A stretch of 64,000 nt of DNA from an uncultured Pseudomonadales bacterium (GTDB lineage Bacteria; Pseudomonadota; Gammaproteobacteria; Pseudomonadales; Porticoccaceae), in assembly GCA_943788895.1 (NCBI GenBank), contig CALSRZ010000001.1, positions 62,001 to 126,000 of the forward strand. Reading direction: 5' to 3'. The position numbers and the translations under genes are program-made. This document shows positions 23,974 through 32,774 of this stretch, piece by piece. The notes below the pieces were generated by a model that was given only the letters and a program-made list of their open reading frames with translations, ran no database searches and had not been told where the DNA came from. Numbering within the stretch: position 1 is the first letter of the stretch; each line of letters begins with the position of its first letter.

Positions 23974-24059
23974 TGCCCAAGTGGTGGAATTGGTAGACAC
24001 GCTATCTTGAGGGGGTAGTGGCGAAAGCCGTGCCGGTTCAAGTCCGGCCTTGGGCACCA
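23974..24059 (+). tRNA. tRNA-Leu (GAG)
   Basis: An 86-base cloverleaf with an encoded CCA. The acceptor GCCCAAG/CTTGGGC pairs perfectly, the D-arm is GTGGAATTGGTAGACAC, the anticodon stem CTATC/GGTAG carries loop TTGAGGG with anticodon GAG, a long class-II variable arm follows, and the T-arm is GGTTCAAGTCC. Same position as leuU of E. coli after secG. Confidence 0.97.
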
Positions 24060-24068
24060 ACTCAAAGA

Positions 24069-24120
24069 CCAGTAATTTTTTACTGGCAATCAAAAAGCTC
24101 CGCCAGTCGGGGCTTTTTTT
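24069..24120 (+). terminator. Hairpin and terminator after tRNA-Leu
   Basis: A small hairpin CCAGTAA/TTACTGG (24069-24086) is followed by AAAAAGCTCC/GGGGCTTTTT (24092-24101 and 24109-24118) with a T-run. It closes the glmM-secG-tRNA-Leu transcription unit and marks the left edge of the accessory island. Confidence 0.88.
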
Positions 24121-24121
24121 G

Positions 24122-24209
24122 TGTCTAAAAAAAGCCATATAAATGACATCAGTTTGCCATCCAAGCTTCATTTTTGTGTCACTTCATTGTCATTGGAACA
24201 GACTATTTT
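24122..24209 (+). promoter_or_regulatory. PhoB-like array before the TonB receptor gene
   Basis: Half-sites resembling TGTCAT recur every 11 bases exactly: TGTCTA (24122), AGCCAT (24133), TGACAT (24144), TGCCAT (24155), CTTCAT (24166), TGTCAC (24177), TGTCAT (24188). The last two form a good Pho box of the E. coli type (two 7-bp repeats, 11-bp period), in the direction of the receptor gene. A -10-like TATTTT lies at 24204-24209, giving a leader of about 30 bases. The first one or two units are weak and may be chance. Confidence 0.72.
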
Positions 24210-24244
24210 CACCGGACTAAATTTTTAGTCTTTTGGGGAAGATA

Positions 24245-26731
24245 ATGAAGAAGTTAAATTTGTGTTTGGCACTACTTACCGCTTCCAGCGTTATGGCGAT
24301 CTCTGCTGTAGCCCAGGATGCATCATCAATTGAAGAAGTCACTGTAGTGGGCAGCAAAGCTACACTGATCTCTGCTGTAGAAAAGCAGCGTGAATCCAAT
24401 AACCTGATCTCTGTTGTAGATTCGGATGCAATGGGCAGCTTTGCTGATACCACTGCTGCTGAAGCAATCAGAAGACTGCCCGGTATCTCTATCGAAAACG
24501 ACCAGTCAGAAGGCCGTTATGTCACTATTCGTGGCTTGAGTTCAGACCTTAACTCAATCGCTGTCAATGGTGCATCCATGGTGGCACCGGAAAATGGTCG
24601 CAGCGTTATGCTCGACGGCCTGCCCACAGAACTGCTCGATTCCATTACAGTGGCCAAGTCGCTGACCCCTGAAATGGATTCGGATTCAATTGGTGGACGT
24701 GTTGATTTCAACACCAAGAAGCCATCAGAGTTGGAAGACCGACTGCTAAAGCTGAAAGCACAGAACAACTTTAACGAGTACGCCGCAGAAAAGCTCAATC
24801 CAAAGCTGGCCCTGACCTATGGCGATAAGATCAATGACCAGGCTGCCCACGTGATTGGCCTGACCTACTCGAGCAAGGACATTGTTGCCTTTAACAATGA
24901 GACCGGTTTTGGCTGGGAAGATGGCGCAATGAATGACGACTACGAAATGCGCTACTACGAGCTGACCAGAGAGCGTTTCGGTGTGACTTACGATGTGGAT
25001 TTCACCTTCGGTGATGACCGTCTGTTTGCCAACCTGTTCTGGAACCAGTACGACGATTCCGAGCTGCGTTGGAAAGATGAGTATGGCGATATTGGCGACC
25101 AGGTGATCTCAACATCAGCGGATGGCATGGTTGTTAATGAGATTAAACACGATGCTGAAACCCGTGTGCGTGAAGAGACCCGTACCATTGCCGCTTTTAA
25201 CCTGGGCTACGAGACTATGGCTTCCGGTTGGGCAATCGATACTATGGCCAGCTACTCTTTTGCTGAAGAAGATGACAGCAACAATGCTGAAGCCAACTTC
25301 CGAACCAAGTACAGAAATGATGACAAGATCACTACCATCAACTGGGCAGACCCCCAGCATCCTTTCCTGACACCTGCTGATAACTCTCTCTATGATCCTG
25401 CGGAAATGGGCTTTGATTCTTTTGAGAGCACTGCAAATGTTTCCAAGGACTCGGAAGTTGCTTTTGTTTTTAACGCTGAAAAAGAGTTCGATATTGGTGT
25501 TGTTAAAGCCGGTGTAAAAGCCAAGAGCCGTGAGAAAGATGTCGATGATTACATCATTGTCTACGACGGCTGGGGCGACAATACTCTGGCAGATATGAAT
25601 CCACAGACAAATTCTGACTGGTTCTTTGCCAACCAGACCTTTAGCCAGCAGGCTGATCCGGATCTGGTCTGGGCTATGAGAGATCTGGTTTCTGAGATGG
25701 ATCTGGATTTTGAAGATGATAGCAGCCGTGACTTCACAACTACTGAAGATATCTTTGCCGCCTATGTTCAAAACACTTACCAGTGGGAAAAAGGTGTAGT
25801 GATTGCCGGTGTGCGTTATGAAAATACCTCTGTTGATTCACAGGCATATGACGCTGCAACCCTTGAACAGACCACTGCTTCAAGTGATCACTCGTTCTTT
25901 GCACCCAGTGTAAATGTTAAGTACTTCTTCAATGATCAGCTTCAATTGCGTGCAGCAATCTGGAAAGGCCTGTCACGTCCTGGCTTTAAGAAAACTGCGC
26001 CAAAACTGGATGTTGATTATGACGACGGTGGTGCCACTGTCAGTGGTTCAGCGGGTAACCCATTGCTGAAGCCCTACGAAGCGGTTAACTACGATCTGTC
26101 TCTGGAGTTCTACGGTGAAGGCATGACTTTCCTCAGCGCCGGCCTGTTCAGAAAAGATATCAAGAACGCCATTTATCCAACCCTTCAGCAGAATGCCACC
26201 ATTATGGGTATCAGCTTTAATGACGGTGTTGAAACCTGGATTAACGCTGATGATTCGACGATTAATGGTTTTGAATTAAATGGCCAGTACGGTTGGGAAA
26301 GTGGCATGTACGTTACAGCCAATATTACCCTGACCGATGGCGAGAGCACTTTCGCCTACGAAGACGACCAGACGTTCACTACTCCGTTTAGAAAACTGGC
26401 AGATGAAGCAGCCAATGTCAGTATCGGTTACGACAAGGGACCATGGGATGTTCGTCTTGCGGCCAACTACCGCAGCGAATACCTCGATTGGCTGGCCGAC
26501 GAAAATGAAGGTATCGATGATGTCAGTGAAAACAATATGCGCTGGGTTGATGCCCACCTGCAGGTTGACCTGACAGCCAAGTACAAAGTCAGTTCAGCAG
26601 TTGAGGTCAAATTCGAAGCCGTCAATCTGGGCAACCGCCCTGAATACTACTACTGGGGTAATGATTCACAGCTTTCCCAGTACGATATTTACGGTAAGAA
26701 CTACTCACTGGGTATGACTTACAACTTCTAA
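24245..26731 (+). CDS. TonB-dependent outer-membrane receptor, phytase-linked
   Basis: Outer-membrane active transporter of 828 residues. A signal peptide (about 1-22) is followed by a plug domain (AAEAIRRLPGISIENDQSEG, VTIRGLSSDLNSIAVNGASM, DSIGGRVDFNTKKP) and a 22-strand barrel ending in YNF. The plug resembles the TIGR01782 (Xanthomonas/Caulobacter-type) group of polymer receptors, not classic siderophore receptors. ATG at 24245 has GGGGAAG upstream. Next to a phytase gene and behind a PhoB-like array; substrate (phytate or another organic phosphate, or its product) is inference. Confidence 0.9.
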   Translation: MKKLNLCLALLTASSVMAISAVAQDASSIEEVTVVGSKATLISAVEKQRESNNLISVVDSDAMGSFADTTAAEAIRRLPGISIENDQSEGRYVTIRGLSSDLNSIAVNGASMVAPENGRSVMLDGLPTELLDSITVAKSLTPEMDSDSIGGRVDFNTKKPSELEDRLLKLKAQNNFNEYAAEKLNPKLALTYGDKINDQAAHVIGLTYSSKDIVAFNNETGFGWEDGAMNDDYEMRYYELTRERFGVTYDVDFTFGDDRLFANLFWNQYDDSELRWKDEYGDIGDQVISTSADGMVVNEIKHDAETRVREETRTIAAFNLGYETMASGWAIDTMASYSFAEEDDSNNAEANFRTKYRNDDKITTINWADPQHPFLTPADNSLYDPAEMGFDSFESTANVSKDSEVAFVFNAEKEFDIGVVKAGVKAKSREKDVDDYIIVYDGWGDNTLADMNPQTNSDWFFANQTFSQQADPDLVWAMRDLVSEMDLDFEDDSSRDFTTTEDIFAAYVQNTYQWEKGVVIAGVRYENTSVDSQAYDAATLEQTTASSDHSFFAPSVNVKYFFNDQLQLRAAIWKGLSRPGFKKTAPKLDVDYDDGGATVSGSAGNPLLKPYEAVNYDLSLEFYGEGMTFLSAGLFRKDIKNAIYPTLQQNATIMGISFNDGVETWINADDSTINGFELNGQYGWESGMYVTANITLTDGESTFAYEDDQTFTTPFRKLADEAANVSIGYDKGPWDVRLAANYRSEYLDWLADENEGIDDVSENNMRWVDAHLQVDLTAKYKVSSAVEVKFEAVNLGNRPEYYYWGNDSQLSQYDIYGKNYSLGMTYNF

Positions 26732-26765
26732 ATCTATGATCTTGAATTCAGGATTTAAGATACCT

Positions 26766-26800
26766 CCCCGGCAGGGTATTACCTGCCGGGGTTTTTATTT
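26766..26800 (+). terminator. Hairpin terminator between receptor and phytase genes
   Basis: A perfect ten-pair stem CCCCGGCAGG/CCTGCCGGGG (26766-26775, 26782-26791) with a six-base loop is followed by TTTTTATTT. It lies inside the receptor-phytase pair, so it may damp phytase expression relative to the receptor if the two are co-transcribed. Confidence 0.9.
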
Positions 26801-26821
26801 ATCCCAATAAAGGAATTGAAA

Positions 26822-27907
26822 TTGCGTAAATCAAAACTGCTGGTTGAACAAAGAATTTTCCAGCCAAAGGCATTTATGGCGCTGGCCATATCCAGTCTGT
26901 TATTTCTCGGCGGCTGCAGCGACCCGCTTGAAGTATCAGCGCTCTATGAGACTCCCCAAGTTATCTCGCCAGACGATGCGGCTGATGATCCGGCTATCTG
27001 GTTGAATCAGGCCGTTCCGGAACAGTCGATAATTTTGGGTACAGATAAGAAGAGTGGTGTCTATGCCTATAATCTGCAGGGCGAACAAATCGGTTACACC
27101 GAACTGGGCAAGATCAATAATATCGATACCCGCAGTTTGGACTCCGACACTTATATACTAGCTTCAAACCGTACTGACCAGACTGTCGACCTGTGGCGTT
27201 TTGCTGATTTGGCAATGTCTGAAGCTGCCGCCAAAAGTGATTTCTCACTGCCCCTCGAACGCAGTATCCAGGGCCAGTCAGAGATCAATATCTACGGTGC
27301 CTGTATGGGCCTAGACAAGACATTTGGATTGCTGGCATTTATCACTGAAGATGAGGGTCCCCGTGTTGAGGTATGGCAGTATGTGAATAACAGTCTCAAC
27401 CTGATCCACACCTTTAATAATGGCGGTGAGTCTGAGGGCTGCGTCTATGATGATGAAAATCGCACCCTGTTTGTTTCAGAGGAAGAGGTCAACGGTGTCC
27501 TGCGGGCCTATCAGTTATCAGATATTCTGGATTTTTCCTCGCCTGTGGTTATAGATTCCCGCAAAGGTAATATCGGCGGTGATCCCGAGGGCGTTACCCT
27601 GTACAAAACCTCTTCTAGCGAGGGCTATCTGATACTCTCCTCTCAGGGAGATTCCAAATTTAATCTCTACAGCCGCACTGCACCCTATAATTATCTGAGC
27701 AGCTTCAGGGTTGCTGATGGGGAAGTAGTCGATGGTGTCACTATTACCGATGGTATTGCGGCTATTAACTACCCGTTAAACGAGGATTTTCCAGAGGGAC
27801 TTCTGGTGGTTCAGGATAATGACAATACCCATGAGGGTGATCTTCTTCGTCAGAATTTCAAACTGATTTCATTCTCTGAAGTGATTGCTGCTTTACAGCT
27901 AAGGTAG
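26822..27907 (+). CDS. Beta-propeller phytase (3-phytase), lipoprotein
   Basis: Phytases of this class (BPP) remove phosphate from inositol hexakisphosphate with Ca2+. The protein has a lipoprotein signal with lipobox LFLGGC, so it is probably anchored in the outer membrane, followed by blades typical of BPP: VISPDDAADDPAIWLNQ, SIILGTDKKSGVYAYNLQG, GDPEGVTLYKTS and VVQDNDNTHEGDLL. TTG at 26822 with AAGGA seven bases upstream is the likely start; TTG at 26816 and ATG at 26876 are alternatives. Its pairing with a TonB receptor is known from other marine and freshwater bacteria. Confidence 0.87.
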   Translation: MRKSKLLVEQRIFQPKAFMALAISSLLFLGGCSDPLEVSALYETPQVISPDDAADDPAIWLNQAVPEQSIILGTDKKSGVYAYNLQGEQIGYTELGKINNIDTRSLDSDTYILASNRTDQTVDLWRFADLAMSEAAAKSDFSLPLERSIQGQSEINIYGACMGLDKTFGLLAFITEDEGPRVEVWQYVNNSLNLIHTFNNGGESEGCVYDDENRTLFVSEEEVNGVLRAYQLSDILDFSSPVVIDSRKGNIGGDPEGVTLYKTSSSEGYLILSSQGDSKFNLYSRTAPYNYLSSFRVADGEVVDGVTITDGIAAINYPLNEDFPEGLLVVQDNDNTHEGDLLRQNFKLISFSEVIAALQLR

Positions 27908-27944
27908 GCTGCACAGAACAAGCAGCAGTAAAAGTCAAAACAGC

Positions 27945-27980
27945 AAAAGCAGCTGGGTCAGAAGGACTTAGCTGCTTTTT
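27945..27980. terminator. Bidirectional terminator between phytase and glycosyltransferase genes
   Basis: The stem AAAAGCAGCT/AGCTGCTTTT (27945-27954, 27970-27979) with T-rich ends on both strands lies between convergent genes and can stop both. Confidence 0.82.
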
Positions 27981-28014
27981 GCATAGGTCAGGTTCTGGTA
28001 GAGGGTTGTAACAG

Positions 28015-29058
28015 TTATGAAGAGAAGTGCTCTGTCTTGGTAGCATCCCAGAGTTGGGATGAGATATGGGCAATTGACTGGTTTCTGCCTGAAACGATCC
28101 AATCGACCAGATACTGAGCCACATCGGGATAGGTGACTTTGCTTCTGGCTGAGGACGCCAGCCATTTTGCAGTTGCGCTAATATCCAAGGCAGACATACT
28201 GGATCCAAGGTTGAGACGCTCCAGTGCTATGGTATTAGATTGCTGTTCCATCTGCTGGGCAACCGGTTTTACCAGCAGCTTCTTGCCGAGCTGAAGAGCT
28301 TCACTGGGCAACTCAAAGCCCGCATTGCAAATCACCGCCTCGGCACGGTGCAGATCCTCTTGGAAACCGGCTCTGGATGGCGGGCGGAAACTGATATTAC
28401 CTCTCTCACTGTGAGTGGCATCCGGGTGGTAGACAATAAATTTATAGTCGGCAAAACTGCCGAGAAATTGAGCAATACTGTCGAGGTTTTCAAAGGGTAA
28501 ATAAACCAGGTTTAAACCCTTTTCGACACTGCACTCAAAGTGTTCAACGGGTGCGATTGGTGGTAGCACCGGGCAGTTAAATTGATCCCAGTGCAATCCC
28601 AGAGCTATATCCGCTGGGGCCAGGTTGTTCATTACCCAGCGATGCACTGGTGTTGTGCGACACATGGGAACTCTGCTGAAGGTAAAAGCATACTGGTGGC
28701 CGAGGCCTATTACCTTTATCCCGGCGCGCTTTCCGGCTCGGGCAGTGATGGGTTCGTAGTCGCTGATTACCAGATCATAGCTGCTGGCATCCAGTTCGGC
28801 GGTATCCCTGAGTAACTGAAAAAGGTTATTTTTAAGAAGGGTTTTTGACCAGATAACCCTGCCAGAGCCGGTGGCGAATGTAATACCGCGCCTGACCTGG
28901 AAATCACCAAAAGCCTGCATATCAAACAGCTCTTCCCGGGGGCGGCCGGAAAACAGAAAATCAACCTGGATATCAGTTTTTGCAAAGGCTGCGGCCATAG
29001 CACGGGCGCGAGTTATATGGCCATTACCAGTGGCCTGGACACCGTAGAGTATTTTCAT
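28015..29058 (-). CDS. Glycosyltransferase, MJ1255/VC2487 type
   Basis: GT-B fold family transferase of 347 residues. The start ILYGVQATGNGHITRARAMA is the glycine-rich N-terminal loop seen in MGDG-synthase/MurG-like enzymes and the MJ1255/VC2487 group. The C-terminal donor part has CNAGFELPSEALQLGKKLLVKPV, the usual nucleotide-sugar site. No signal peptide. ATG overlaps the PAP2 gene stop by four bases, so they are coupled. The acceptor is unknown; a diacylglycerol acceptor is my inference from the neighbouring lipid genes. Confidence is for the family. Confidence 0.8.
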   Translation of the reverse strand: MKILYGVQATGNGHITRARAMAAAFAKTDIQVDFLFSGRPREELFDMQAFGDFQVRRGITFATGSGRVIWSKTLLKNNLFQLLRDTAELDASSYDLVISDYEPITARAGKRAGIKVIGLGHQYAFTFSRVPMCRTTPVHRWVMNNLAPADIALGLHWDQFNCPVLPPIAPVEHFECSVEKGLNLVYLPFENLDSIAQFLGSFADYKFIVYHPDATHSERGNISFRPPSRAGFQEDLHRAEAVICNAGFELPSEALQLGKKLLVKPVAQQMEQQSNTIALERLNLGSSMSALDISATAKWLASSARSKVTYPDVAQYLVDWIVSGRNQSIAHISSQLWDATKTEHFSS

Positions 29059-29594
29059 AGGATCAGTGTAAGGGCGATCTGGGCACAGCTAAAGCCGAGT
29101 ATGGCTCCGGCAAATGTATCGGATGGGAAATGCACGCCGAGGCAAACTCTCGAGCAGCCGACCATGGCCGCCCAGATATAGATATAGGGTGCGGTTGCCG
29201 GAAAGCAGGTGGTCAGCACGGTAGCCACCAAGAACGCAGCTGATGTATGCCCGGAGGGAAAGCTAAACTGGTCGCCGGGGATAACCATCCCCTTAATATC
29301 TGGCAGGCAGTCTGAGGGACGGTTGCGTTTAAAACCCTCCTTTAAAATTTTGTAGAGAGGGCGCTCGATAGCAAAGGCGCCGAGCATCGCCAGGCCAAAT
29401 TGGTATTCATGGGTAGTGCCCATAAAGAGCAGGGCCAGTAGGATCAGCGGATATAGATAACCGTCGGCGGTTGTGGAGATAACACGGCCAAAAATGGCAA
29501 GCTGGGGAAATAATTCCCTGGTCAGCAGCCAGCGCAGTGCCCGGATATCAAGGCTGCTGAGTCGCTGGATCAATGTATTTTTTTCGATTTCCAT
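29055..29594 (-). CDS. PAP2-family membrane phosphatase
   Basis: Integral membrane phosphatase of 179 residues with several helices. The three PAP2 motifs are complete: KEGFKRNRP (KX6RP), FPSGHTSA (PSGH) and SRVCLGVHFPSD (SRX5HX3D). Enzymes of this type remove phosphate from phosphatidate, phosphatidylglycerol phosphate or undecaprenyl pyrophosphate. Coupled to the glycosyltransferase downstream and preceded by PhoB-like half-sites; formation of diacylglycerol from phosphatidate is a hypothesis. Confidence 0.88.
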   Translation of the reverse strand: MEIEKNTLIQRLSSLDIRALRWLLTRELFPQLAIFGRVISTTADGYLYPLILLALLFMGTTHEYQFGLAMLGAFAIERPLYKILKEGFKRNRPSDCLPDIKGMVIPGDQFSFPSGHTSAAFLVATVLTTCFPATAPYIYIWAAMVGCSRVCLGVHFPSDTFAGAILGFSCAQIALTLIL

Positions 29595-29612
29595 AGTAAA
29601 ACCATAGCTAGC

Positions 29613-29656
29613 TTTTATGACAGTCAGGTTTAGCTAATATGAAATTTTTATGTCAG
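29613..29656 (-). promoter_or_regulatory. PhoB-like half-sites before the PAP2-glycosyltransferase pair
   Basis: Read on the minus strand the units CTGACATAAAA (29656-29646), ATTTCATATTA (29645-29635), GCTAAACCTGA (29634-29624, no match) and CTGTCATAAAA (29623-29613) follow each other on an 11-base phase. The first two together match 15 of 18 positions of the E. coli Pho-box consensus. The site ends about 20 bases before the PAP2 ATG, so the first pair is the likelier activating box. No convincing -10 is seen. Confidence 0.6.
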
Positions 29657-29668
29657 TTAACCCTGTGA

Positions 29669-31393
29669 TTATTCGCCCAGGTATCGCTGTCGGCGACTTT
29701 CTTTAAGCTGCTCTATATCCACCACAATTAACCCGTCGATACAGAGAGCGAAATCGGGATCTATATTAAAAGCCACAAACTCAACACCACCGGGCTCGCA
29801 GAGTTCGCTGTACTGTTTATAGAGTGTTGGAACACTCAGGTTCATTGCCGTCAATCGCTCCTTAAGCAGAGTGAATTCACTTTGGTAATCCTGGCCTGGG
29901 AACAGCTTGTTAAGCTCTTCTGTGCGCTGTGGAGTGATAATGTAGGGCAGCCGCGGGACTGCGTAACAATCTGTTGGCGGAAAGTGGGTGCTGTAAAAGT
30001 GCACCAGCATTTCCATCGCCTGGGGAGGGAAGCTGTTCGATAGGGTAACCGGACCAAACAGATACCTGTATTCAGGGTTTGCACGCAGGAAGGCACCAAT
30101 GCCATACCATAGATAGTCCAGACTTCTGCGACCCCAGTACCTGGGCTGGACAAAACTGCGGCCAAGTTCAATGCCCTGCTGCAGCTTCTTCTGCATTGCC
30201 GGTTGCAGATCGAACAGGGTTGAGCTGTAGAGCTGCGATGCGTGGCTGGCAAGATCAATTTGATCCGTGGGGTGGAATCTGTAGGCCCCGGCAATCTCCA
30301 GTTCATCCTCATCCCAGAGAATCAGCTGGTGATAGTGATAGTCATAGATATCGTTATCGCGGCGCAGACCTGTACCCTCACCGACAGCGCGAAAGGCAAT
30401 CTCTCGCAATCGACCAATTTCCCGCATAATGCAGCAGTCCGCATTCTCGTTACTGCTGCCCTGATAGAGGTAGATATGTTTATTATCTTTGGTCATGCCC
30501 AATAACTGGCAGTTGCGAATATCCCGGCGCAGGCCGGCTCGGTTTTCCGGGGTGGCAATGGCAGAGCTGGTTGGCAGAATACCTTTCCTGTCTTTACCAA
30601 TAGCGTAGAGATGACGACGGAACAGACTGCTCTGTTCATTGATCGATAGGGGTAGTTTGGAATAGTCCTGATAGCTGATTGGATTGCCGATTCGGATATC
30701 CACACAGTTGTGGTTTTGTTTGAACATCTCACGCACCAGCCAGATGGTTGACAGAGGTCGTGCCAATAGCGATAGGGCGTAGAAAAACATGGAATTTCGG
30801 GCGTTGATAAATAGCGGGATAATCGGCGACCCGGTTTTGCTGGCAAAGCGCAAAAAGCCATTGCGCCAGCGGGTGTCGCGAATACCTTTTGCCCCCAGTC
30901 TCGATACCTCTCCCGCCGGAAAGATAATCAGTGCGCCCTCTTTCTGCAGGTGGTCAGTGATGGCGTGCAGGGAATCCCTGGCGGTTTTGCCGTTCATATT
31001 GTCCACCGGCAACAGCACTGGTTGCAGGGGTTTGATTGCCATCAGCAGATCATTGGCCACAACCCGGACATCCGGGCGTACCTCGCGCATTAGCTTTAAC
31101 AGTGCCAAGCCATCCAGTGAGCCGATAGGGTGGTTGGCGACAATAACCACACGCCCCTGGCGGGGAATTTTCTCGCGCTCTGTTTCACGCACAGTGAATG
31201 AGAAGTCAAAGAACTCGAGAACCTGCTCGGCAAATTCAAAGCCCTTTAAGTGGGGGTATTGGGACTCAAAATATTTGAACTGCCGTTCGTTGAACAGCAG
31301 TCTTAACAGCTGGGTCAGCCGTTTGTAGAGACGCGGTCGCTGTGCGCAAAAATTCGGGTAGTTGTCGAGAAGAAATGAATCAACGTCAAGCAT
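29669..31393 (-). CDS. olsF: Bifunctional OlsF-type acyltransferase (ornithine-lipid synthase candidate)
   Basis: Two-domain protein of 574 residues. The N-terminal half is a lysophospholipid (PlsC-like) acyltransferase with VIVANHPIGSLDG (His near residue 88), VLLPVDN and IIFPAGEVSR. The C-terminal half resembles the OlsB/GNAT N-acyltransferase (EIAGAYRFHP, FVQPRYWGRRSLDYLWYGIG, YLFGPVTLSN). This order is that of Serratia OlsF, which makes ornithine lipid alone. It is first in a minus-strand run with PAP2 and glycosyltransferase genes and is preceded by a PhoB-like array. Ornithine lipid as product is inference from family and context. Confidence 0.78.
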   Translation of the reverse strand: MLDVDSFLLDNYPNFCAQRPRLYKRLTQLLRLLFNERQFKYFESQYPHLKGFEFAEQVLEFFDFSFTVRETEREKIPRQGRVVIVANHPIGSLDGLALLKLMREVRPDVRVVANDLLMAIKPLQPVLLPVDNMNGKTARDSLHAITDHLQKEGALIIFPAGEVSRLGAKGIRDTRWRNGFLRFASKTGSPIIPLFINARNSMFFYALSLLARPLSTIWLVREMFKQNHNCVDIRIGNPISYQDYSKLPLSINEQSSLFRRHLYAIGKDRKGILPTSSAIATPENRAGLRRDIRNCQLLGMTKDNKHIYLYQGSSNENADCCIMREIGRLREIAFRAVGEGTGLRRDNDIYDYHYHQLILWDEDELEIAGAYRFHPTDQIDLASHASQLYSSTLFDLQPAMQKKLQQGIELGRSFVQPRYWGRRSLDYLWYGIGAFLRANPEYRYLFGPVTLSNSFPPQAMEMLVHFYSTHFPPTDCYAVPRLPYIITPQRTEELNKLFPGQDYQSEFTLLKERLTAMNLSVPTLYKQYSELCEPGGVEFVAFNIDPDFALCIDGLIVVDIEQLKESRRQRYLGE

Positions 31394-31438
31394 ACGGAAT
31401 TGGCCATATTTTTGTAATTTGTTGCCATTGTGCTAAAC

Positions 31439-31482
31439 AAATATGACTCTTTTCTGACCGCTGGATGACGTTGTTGTGTCAG
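31439..31482 (-). promoter_or_regulatory. PhoB-like array before olsF
   Basis: Four 11-base units stand head to tail on the minus strand: CTGACACAACA, ACGTCATCCAG, CGGTCAGAAAA, GAGTCATATTT. Each has GTCA or GACA at the same place, matching 4-5 of the six TGTCAT positions. Two consecutive Pho boxes of 13/18 and 14/18 matches to the E. coli consensus result. A possible -10 CACAAT follows, and olsF starts 46 bases from the array. Confidence 0.68.
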
Positions 31483-31492
31483 ATTTTTGTCG

Positions 31493-31606
31493 CTAGTCGG
31501 AATTTTCTTCTGTGTTCTTTTTATTGCGCTTGCGATCGTAGAGGTAGTAGGCGAGTAAAACTGATCCCCAGCCAAAAAAGGTGATCAAAAATTCATTTAA
31601 AGACAT
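31493..31606 (-). CDS. Putative 37-residue membrane protein
   Basis: A short open frame from ATG at 31606 reads MSLNEFLITFFGWGSVLLAY then YLYDRKRNKKNTEENSD. It has one hydrophobic helix followed by a basic-acidic tail, a layout common in small inner-membrane proteins. A weak GGGAA lies upstream. It precedes olsF on the same strand, with the PhoB-like array between. I do not recognise the family; no function is proposed. Confidence 0.5.
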   Translation of the reverse strand: MSLNEFLITFFGWGSVLLAYYLYDRKRNKKNTEENSD

Positions 31607-31797
31607 TATCTGTTCCCGAAGTTATCTGTGAAATTTATACCGGCAAGAATAGCAACTGTCCGCTTTATAGTGAATGGCAAAAGCAAAGATAATAAAAAAT
31701 AGATAATCTGCCATAGGAAGCTATTACAATGCCCCATTAACTCCTCGGCGCTAGTTCCTGGAGATATTTATCTGGAAGTTTTTAAAAGGCAGTCAGT

Positions 31798-32595
31798 ATG
31801 TTTGCAGGAAAAATTATCGCTGGATTAATTGGCTTTTCGGCATTGGGGCCACTCGGATTGTTAATCGGGCTCTATGTAGGTCACCAGTTTGATAAAGGGC
31901 TGGGCGGGTTACGTCCCATGTCGGCGCAGCAGCAGGAAGAGGTTCGCGACTCCTACTTTCGAACTGTCTTTAGTTTGTTTGGCAATCTGGCCAAGGCCGA
32001 TGGCCGAATATCAGCGGAAGAGATAGCGCTTGCTGAAGCGCTGATGGGCAAAATGGGTTTAAGCAGTGTCCATCGTAAAGAGGCCATCGAACTATTTAAG
32101 CGCGGTGCCAAGGGTGATTTTTCTGTGGACGACACCCTGCATGCCTTTATGGCTATCTGTGGTCGTCATAACAATCTGAAAAGATCGCTGCTCAATGATT
32201 TGATCTCTCTAGCCATTGCCGATGGCGAGCTGCATCAGGCAGAGCAGGATCTGCTGCGGACCATAGCCAGTCGATTGGGTTTCTCCGCTGCACTCTTTGA
32301 TCAATTTATAGCGATGATCAAGGCCCAGTCCCAATTTAAGGATTCCACTTCTGGAGGTGGCGGCTATAGAGCTCAGACTTCAGCCACTCAGCTCAGTGCT
32401 GCCTACACAGCACTCGGCGTTGAGCAGTCCAGTTCGGATAGTCAGATTAAACGCGCCTACCGAAAATTGATCAGTGAGAATCACCCGGACAAGCTGATTG
32501 GGCAGGGCATGCCGGAGGATATGGTCAAGCTGGCGACAGAGCGCACTCAAGAGATTCAAACCGCCTACGATTTGATTGTTACTAGCCGAAAATAA
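31798..32595 (+). CDS. djlA: Membrane-anchored DnaJ-like co-chaperone DjlA
   Basis: Type III DnaJ of 265 residues. A glycine-rich N-terminal membrane segment (IIAGLIGFSALGPLGLLIGL) is followed by a TerB-like helical domain (LFGNLAKADGRISAEEIALAE, LAIADGELHQAEQDLLRTIA) and a C-terminal J domain (YTALGVEQSSSDSQIKRAYRKL) with HPD in ENHPDKLIG. Matches E. coli DjlA (271 residues), a partner of DnaK, whose gene is at 45 kb. It lies between the accessory island and the tRNA-fMet promoter. Confidence 0.9.
   Translation: MFAGKIIAGLIGFSALGPLGLLIGLYVGHQFDKGLGGLRPMSAQQQEEVRDSYFRTVFSLFGNLAKADGRISAEEIALAEALMGKMGLSSVHRKEAIELFKRGAKGDFSVDDTLHAFMAICGRHNNLKRSLLNDLISLAIADGELHQAEQDLLRTIASRLGFSAALFDQFIAMIKAQSQFKDSTSGGGGYRAQTSATQLSAAYTALGVEQSSSDSQIKRAYRKLISENHPDKLIGQGMPEDMVKLATERTQEIQTAYDLIVTSRK

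Positions 32596-32697: not shown

Positions 32698-32774
<77 letters not shown>

Follow-up and report, generated by a model that had tools for sequence, protein, structure and literature searches.

A putative PhoB-regulated gene block for organic phosphate scavenging and phosphorus-free lipid replacement in a marine Porticoccaceae bacterium

The genome of an uncultured Pseudomonadales bacterium of the family Porticoccaceae (GenBank assembly GCA_943788895.1) carries, between the genes for tRNA-Leu(GAG) and tRNA-fMet, a block of five genes encoding a TonB-dependent receptor, a beta-propeller phytase, a glycosyltransferase (GT), a PAP2 phosphatase and the bifunctional ornithine lipid synthase OlsF. 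The block was analysed within a window of 64,000 nucleotides (contig CALSRZ010000001.1, positions 62,001 to 126,000 of the forward strand), to which the coordinates in Table 1 refer. The host is a marine bacterium with a genome of 1.95 Mb in 6 contigs, 93% complete (labelled G000), and among named genomes it is closest to two assembled from metagenomes, X_MB111 (OX044363.1; G017) and Porticoccaceae cluster1_bin.12 (JAQWGK010000055.1; G033). Taken as a whole, the block is probably a toolkit for phosphate starvation controlled by PhoB, in which the scavenging of organic phosphate is combined with the replacement of phospholipids by phosphorus-free lipids.

The genes folP-glmM-tpiA-secG-tRNA-Leu(GAG) are followed by the receptor and phytase genes; convergent with these stand GT, PAP2 and OlsF, then a 37-residue open reading frame (ORF) of the same strand and djlA-tRNA-fMet-rimP-nusA. 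The GT and PAP2 genes share a 4-base overlap, and the gap between PAP2 and OlsF measures 74 bases. This gene content had been proposed in an earlier note made from the sequence alone; both tRNAs were located and the five named genes were confirmed by profile searches (Table 1). Escherichia coli K-12, the sole genome outside the genus read at this interval, has argG and yhbX between the same tRNAs.

Table 1. Features of the block and its flanks, with the profile scores (in bits) and other evidence on which each assignment rests.
Feature	Position	Strand	Evidence or remark
tRNA-Leu(GAG)	23975..24059	+	ARAGORN; left edge of the shared block
PhoB box array before TonB receptor	24132..24193	+	exact 11-bp phasing over six registers, with weak half-sites in two
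TonB-dependent receptor, 828 residues	24245..26731	+	TIGR01782, 471 versus cut-off 310; PF00593 and PF07715 also match
Terminator-like hairpin in receptor/phytase spacer	26766..26791	+	10 pairs, T-rich tail after
Beta-propeller phytase, lipoprotein-type signal	26816..27907	+	PF02333, 182 versus cut-off 21; solved bacterial phytase 3amr, E=1.7e-41; lipobox (LGGC) read from the translation
GT-B glycosyltransferase (GT), MJ1255/VC2487 family	28015..29058	-	TIGR00661, 212 versus cut-off 195.9; AlphaFold fold
PAP2 phosphatase	29055..29594	-	PF01569, 83.6 versus cut-off 27.2; three catalytic motifs intact
PhoB box before PAP2	29617..29656	-	three half-sites (29656, 29645, 29623), 11/22 bp apart, one register empty
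OlsF, bifunctional ornithine lipid synthase	29669..31393	-	NF052615, 832 versus cut-off 620, residues 1-572
PhoB box array before OlsF	31443..31482	-	four half-sites in 11-bp register
37-residue membrane-like protein	31493..31606	-	frame open; djlA flank
djlA, conserved flank and locus anchor	31798..32595	+	NF006948, 294 versus cut-off 162
tRNA-Met(CAT) (tRNA-fMet)	32698-32774		right-hand tRNA of the interval

All three transcription units are preceded by PhoB-like half-sites phased at 11 bp, as the earlier note had claimed. They were scored with a two-half-site PhoB weight matrix, built from the general PhoB consensus and untrained, against a 392-kb sample of the host genome taken in 20 stretches that deliberately included the phoB/pst stretch. 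The best two-half-site scores amount to 15.97 before the receptor, 13.04 before PAP2 and 10.57 before OlsF, corresponding to region-corrected p-values of 0.0026, 0.0023 and 0.014, while the same matrix gives p-values of 0.26-0.50 in five neighbouring non-coding stretches. Among 122 intergenic proxies drawn from 18 of the 20 stretches, leaving aside the phoB/pst stretch and one other, none scores at least 13 and seven score at least 10.5. Four of the five top sites of the sample precede phoB or lie between pstS and a porin gene, which serves as a positive control, and the genome itself encodes PhoB (335 bits) and PstS. The matrix scan found no PhoB box upstream of the phytase gene in the window; given the strong hairpin that follows the receptor gene and the lack of a box of its own, the phytase is probably transcribed by read-through from the receptor promoter. 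A genome-wide enrichment of PhoB-like sites was considered and rejected, since sites with up to three mismatches number 1098 versus 1357 for a control pattern. The signal is thus local, and the claim rests on the promoters rather than on a global excess.

Two further observations on PhoB-like sites in this genome can be recorded. Such sites also precede a glyceraldehyde-3-phosphate dehydrogenase gene and a porin gene (locus L144, 6977-7981 and 11440-12423; G000:C5). The genome matches both half-sites exactly only once (L143, 7125; G000:C1:207126), where an ORF with chalcone-isomerase-like and TonB C-terminal domains begins; a 365-residue ORF and an AcrB-type transporter gene follow 0.3 kb further on, and the site has no other link to phosphate.

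The boxes are conserved in relatives. The 200-bp upstream regions of homologues were scanned, with a hit defined by p<0.05 and alignments starting after query residue 25 excluded. A box precedes the receptor in 7/7 relatives, two of which carry copies of this block, and PAP2 in 19/19. The latter figure is flattering because the PAP2 genes of loci L119 and L126 were excluded, both of which fail in the complete set; there, with 25 GT-bearing genomes among the 94 compared, 21 of the 23 testable units have a box before PAP2. A box stands directly before OlsF in 8/13 regions. When OlsF is scored by transcription unit, 14/16 genomes have one, ten before OlsF itself and four (G080, G057, G058, G084) before the gene ahead of it, which encodes the metallophosphoesterase here named PlcP, a putative phospholipase, so that these four had a second chance in the count; a second OlsF copy of G057 stands outside it. 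Control genes rarely score (nusA 0/16, secG 0/8, glmM 0/7, folP 0/4, tpiA 1/8, rimP 3/16), the single hit among 17 djlA regions is a divergent PAP2 box, and no box was found directly before phytase (0/8) or GT (0/35). Spacing and motif controls, run on 16 of the 24 PAP2 upstream regions, gave 13/16 hits at 11 bp and 11/16 at 22 bp, versus 1-3/16 at six other spacings, and 0/16 with a reversed or complemented motif. The shuffle p-values carry no correction for how many genomes were scanned, nor can relatives be treated as independent of one another.

Could these sites be chance matches in A+T-rich spacers? The absence of a genome-wide excess and the derivation of the matrix from a general consensus would agree with this, but the spacing and motif controls, the conservation across genera and the positive control at pstS and phoB make it most improbable. 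The three units are very probably under Pho control, PhoB being predicted to bind the arrays and to induce the genes behind them.

A division of labour can be proposed on this basis. Outside the cell, the TonB receptor, a probable importer of phytate or other organic phosphate, and the lipoprotein phytase would import and cleave phytate-like compounds; the two genes adjoin each other in all 13 genomes with a full-length phytase (in G007 only the receptor end is on the contig). Inside the cell, phosphorus-free lipids would substitute for phospholipid: OlsF would make ornithine lipid, PAP2 would convert phosphatidate or a related lipid phosphate to diacylglycerol and thereby free phosphate, and GT would add a sugar from a UDP-sugar to this diacylglycerol, yielding a glycolipid. 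The scavenging role and that of OlsF are likely; the glycolipid step by PAP2 and GT, with the acceptor and sugar of GT and the action of PAP2 on phosphatidate all presumed, is an evenly balanced proposal. The general idea of the earlier note, phosphate scavenging outside and lipid saving inside under Pho control, is well supported by the conserved boxes and by recurring gene pairs.

The PAP2-GT pair deserves closer attention. PAP2 is the upstream neighbour of GT in 24/25 GT genomes (the GT of G048, with an in-frame stop, being scored as present), and the distances of the two proteins correlate (Mantel r=0.82, n=38, p=0.0005). The three catalytic motifs of PAP2 (KX6RP, PSGH and SRX5HX3D) are kept in 38/38 homologues. 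The AlphaFold model of GT has a mean pLDDT of 92, and its nearest folds are GT-B enzymes using UDP-sugars, among them the sterol glucosyltransferase Ugt51 and MurG. No diacylglycerol glycosyltransferase appears among the fold matches listed, a search of PDB sequences with the GT profile gave no hit, and GT has no BLAST match to two proteins of the type of Agt, the glycosyltransferase of the known PlcP-Agt pathway. The window GT clusters with that of G046 at the same site and with near family members, apart from the other GT lineage seen in the genus.

These features also bear on a different function, in which the pair would be Pho-regulated while acting on polyprenyl phosphate and surface glycans: PAP2 would be an undecaprenyl diphosphate phosphatase, GT would glycosylate an envelope carrier, and phosphate-poor glycans would replace phosphate-rich ones. 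The best NCBIfam match of PAP2 is indeed SepP, an undecaprenyl-diphosphatase, with 50.9 bits (53.8 and 62.1 in two homologues), ahead of PgpB with 33.4 bits versus a cut-off of 261; MurG is among the fold neighbours, and isolated sugar-nucleotide genes are found close to the pair in L121 and L166. Yet the SepP scores stay far under the cut-off of 250, and in the neighbourhoods read, mostly from translations, the pair has no recurring glycan gene as a neighbour, whereas PlcP and OlsF do recur. A role in surface glycans is accordingly unlikely.

PlcP and Agt are the enzymes of the known glycolipid pathway. PlcP was not found in the host genome at E<=1e-20, nor Agt at E<=1e-25, the genome being 93% complete; its only two PF00149 proteins are best matched by cAMP phosphodiesterase and ApaH models, respectively. 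Neither PlcP nor Agt was found in G033 and G017 (98% complete). Elsewhere, the metallophosphoesterases that we provisionally name PlcP in L175, L172 and Sphingomonas are 63, 49 and 56% identical to a Pseudomonas aeruginosa protein; the reference for this naming is PA3219-PA3218, in which that protein precedes a glycosyltransferase, as presented in passages of PMC8528852.

Presence sets were compiled by hand from the OlsF, phytase, GT and PlcP searches. Among the 94 genomes, GT occurs in 25, OlsF in 16 (>400 bits), PlcP in 18, full-length phytase in 13 (fragments in G048 and G091 being excluded) and Agt in 6 at E<=1e-25, two of them >300 bits. OlsF matches of <=400 bits were left out of the main co-occurrence table, and a looser set was computed as well. 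Outside the genus, one genome was taken from each of 44 genera, relatedness beyond that being unmodelled; GT and OlsF occur together in 11 (p=3.3e-5), as do OlsF and PlcP (11, p=3.3e-5) and GT and PlcP (11, p=0.001). Within the genus (50 genomes), GT and phytase share 6 genomes (6/9 GT genomes versus 3/41 others, p=0.0004), and GT and PlcP share none. The co-occurrence of all five genes suggested by the earlier note is thereby borne out for recurring pairs, including GT and phytase within the genus, and not for GT and phytase in other genera.

Gene neighbourhoods are consistent with these pairs. PAP2-GT-PlcP forms a gene run in L123, L124 and L126, PlcP-PAP2-GT in L167, PlcP-GT in L172 and PlcP-OlsF in L120, L121, L134, L136 and L138; in L119, PlcP faces PAP2-GT with OlsF on the other side. 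Elsewhere the block splits into three separable units: TonB receptor-phytase, PAP2-GT, and OlsF, often with PlcP. Because PAP2 and PlcP can stand in one gene run, the idea that PAP2 is a plain substitute for PlcP was rejected.

The association of GT with OlsF in 11/44 genera could also mean that GT sugar-coats ornithine lipid or that PAP2 merely recycles the phosphate of lipid phosphates, the pair then serving OlsF or salvage with no diacylglycerol glycolipid. This is very unlikely, as OlsF above 400 bits is missing from 6/9 GT genomes of the genus and from 5/16 outside it.

Some side observations concern the distribution of these genes. In L114 (G049), the 2.4 kb between PlcP and the TonB receptor-phytase pair hold genes for a NUDIX protein and polyphosphate kinase 2. 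In G072, a genome without PlcP at E<=1e-20, a short, incomplete match to PlcP (L218, 7083-7226) stands ahead of OlsF and is possibly a remnant. The Aureibacter plasmid pAT3 (L201, 10-1484), from outside the Proteobacteria, carries a partial PlcP match (35-39% over ~140 residues, ended by the record edge) followed by a GT with 33% identity.

A survey at the level of the class extended the view. GT was matched at E<=0.001 by 96 of 369 genomes, and 14 loci were kept after hits of <87 bits had been dropped. The boxes are weaker there, with p-values of 0.006-0.058 for six PAP2-GT units, 0.086 for the PlcP-GT unit of L172 and 0.008-0.41 for five partnerless GT genes. In L175 (G204), a PF13528 glycosyltransferase only 24% identical to the window GT adjoins PlcP behind a strong PhoB-like site (score 18.2, p=0.002), which suggests that PlcP has partners in more than one GT lineage.

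Several results weigh against the proposed toolkit. With the genome 93% complete, the absence of PlcP or Agt may reflect missing sequence, although neither turned up in G033 and G017 either. PAP2 occurs in one gene run with the very enzyme whose place it might be thought to take. UDP-GlcNAc 2-epimerases match the GT fold as well as glycosyltransferases do, so that the fold does not fix the acceptor. PAP2 is less constant further out: it stands beside GT in 11/18 named loci, the seven without it being five from Gilliamella, one from a Cellvibrionaceae bacterium and OCS116, and in 7/14 loci of the class survey, window included, although in 6/7 of those above the family cut-off. The Cellvibrionaceae locus (L033) counts on the other side, in favour of the toolkit: no PAP2 was seen there, and a diacylglycerol kinase gene (PF01219) is divergent to GT. 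No significant box was found before PAP2 in G051 and G074 (complete set) or before OlsF in G074 and G072. Finally, outside the genus GT and phytase share only two genomes (p=0.46), that is, no association.

How the five genes came to lie together is a separate question. The interval between tRNA-Leu and djlA (24060-31797 in the window, and its homologous sites) is a site of gene turnover in the genus, with contents that differ widely from genome to genome: among 18 genus genomes, receptor-phytase is present there in 6, PAP2-GT in 4, OlsF in 3 and none of the three units in 11 (one set of 15 loci includes 6 where tRNA-Leu itself was unseen). All five genes form one block in 3/94 genomes (G000, G017 and G033), as mutual copies 95-98% identical per gene. 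In G017, a frameshift near residue 490 breaks OlsF (L031, ~7140), which is intact in the other two. In G072, three different contigs carry receptor-phytase, PAP2-GT and OlsF, respectively. The single adaptive module advanced in the earlier note is supported only in part: the three blocks are copies of one stretch, one of them with a broken OlsF, and the fourth genome has all the genes scattered.

These figures lend themselves to another view, an accidental pile-up of three separately Pho-regulated units, adjacent without acting jointly. The variable contents of the interval, the 11/18 genomes lacking every unit, the restriction of the full block to three near-identical copies and its scattering in G072 all fit. 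Against this, phytase and PAP2-GT stand together at another site in G007 and G016, where GT is 41% identical, PlcP lies near TonB receptor-phytase in G049, and OlsF is beside PAP2-GT in G074 and <=3 kb from it in G080 and G086. We consider mere pile-up rather unlikely and retain the joint toolkit as the probable explanation.

Comparison with G017 informs the history of the block. Identity is 96.75% over the block versus a mean of 90.9% elsewhere, and the edges are sharp, both on the tRNA side, where identity rises from ~90% to 99% at ~24000, and near 31490. Differences at four-fold sites are 0.07-0.15 in the block versus 0.24-0.43 in folP, glmM, tpiA, secG, djlA and rimP, and 0.12 in nusA. High identity was rejected as proof of a recent transfer specific to the block, parts of 34-53 kb being as similar to G017 (97.5% in the best 7.2-kb stretch outside); the relation of the window to G017 is therefore a mosaic throughout, and the block is not a special mobile element. 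Homologous recombination that swapped the whole block at once would fit the data. A classical integrative island was rejected as well, since the 3' end of tRNA-Leu occurs once in the window (<=3 mismatches) with no flanking direct repeat. The five block proteins all belong to families other than integrases, overlapping shorter ORFs lying outside this search.

The 37-residue protein, which the earlier note had counted as part of the island, was rejected as a block member and belongs to the djlA flank. It has no PhoB box, either in the upstream regions of relatives (0/6) or in the window, occurs beside djlA without the block in G022 (L106), and lies just right of the block edge with 72% nucleotide identity. 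The region of this gene and the djlA spacer (31500-31800) is 53-72% identical to the sisters, compared with 92-99% in the block and 74-91% in djlA.

The single elements of the block have precedents. In passages of PMC3400609, phytase and a neighbouring TonB transporter are described in marine bacteria, namely Citromicrobium and, as a phytic acid transporter, the SAR92 strain HTCC2207; these are the same genes in the same ecological group, and in the present block the receptor is in addition preceded by a conserved PhoB array. Vibrio cholerae OlsF (VC0489) is reported as PhoB-dependent (PMC12186959); the block OlsF belongs to the same enzyme family, adjoins the PAP2-GT and phytate units and has PhoB control predicted from its promoter. 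The PhoB regulon of Caulobacter includes TonB receptors, a phytase, phospholipase C and lipid-replacement enzymes (PMC11208175), but its lipid enzymes are those of a ceramide pathway and the passages describing it show no single gene block. Closest is PlcP-Agt remodelling, in which, during phosphate starvation, a unit under Pho-box control delivers diacylglycerol and attaches a sugar to it, according to passages of PMC4796936 and PMC8528852. The PAP2-GT unit resembles it in its putative Pho box and in the gene runs it shares with PlcP homologues; it differs in that PAP2 stands beside a GT of the MJ1255/VC2487 type, with a UGT/MurG-like fold, and in that searches of the genome gave neither PlcP nor Agt.

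Diacylglycerol must stem from PlcP or from the dephosphorylation of phosphatidate, as a passage of PMC4796936 has it, and passages of PMC9239053 and PMC8528852 each refer to a glycolipid for which the responsible glycosyltransferase has yet to be identified. Searches of the open-licence literature in PubMed Central gave no report of the PAP2-GT pair as a Pho-regulated lipid operon; VC2487 appears in one paper, as a ChiS ChIP peak (PMC11856585). The PAP2-GT operon may thus be an unrecognised route to sugar lipids. Tentatively, and with slightly more doubt than for the step itself, it can be viewed as a second Pho-regulated glycolipid route present in several orders of the Gammaproteobacteria, which would work without PlcP and Agt, would often be joined with PlcP and OlsF, and whose GT would probably be inverting. 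Lipid replacement helps set the phosphorus need of ocean bacteria. The conserved Pho-boxed PAP2-GT operon provides a named candidate pair for it and, if this assignment is true, genomes without PlcP or Agt could also be scored for lipid replacement.

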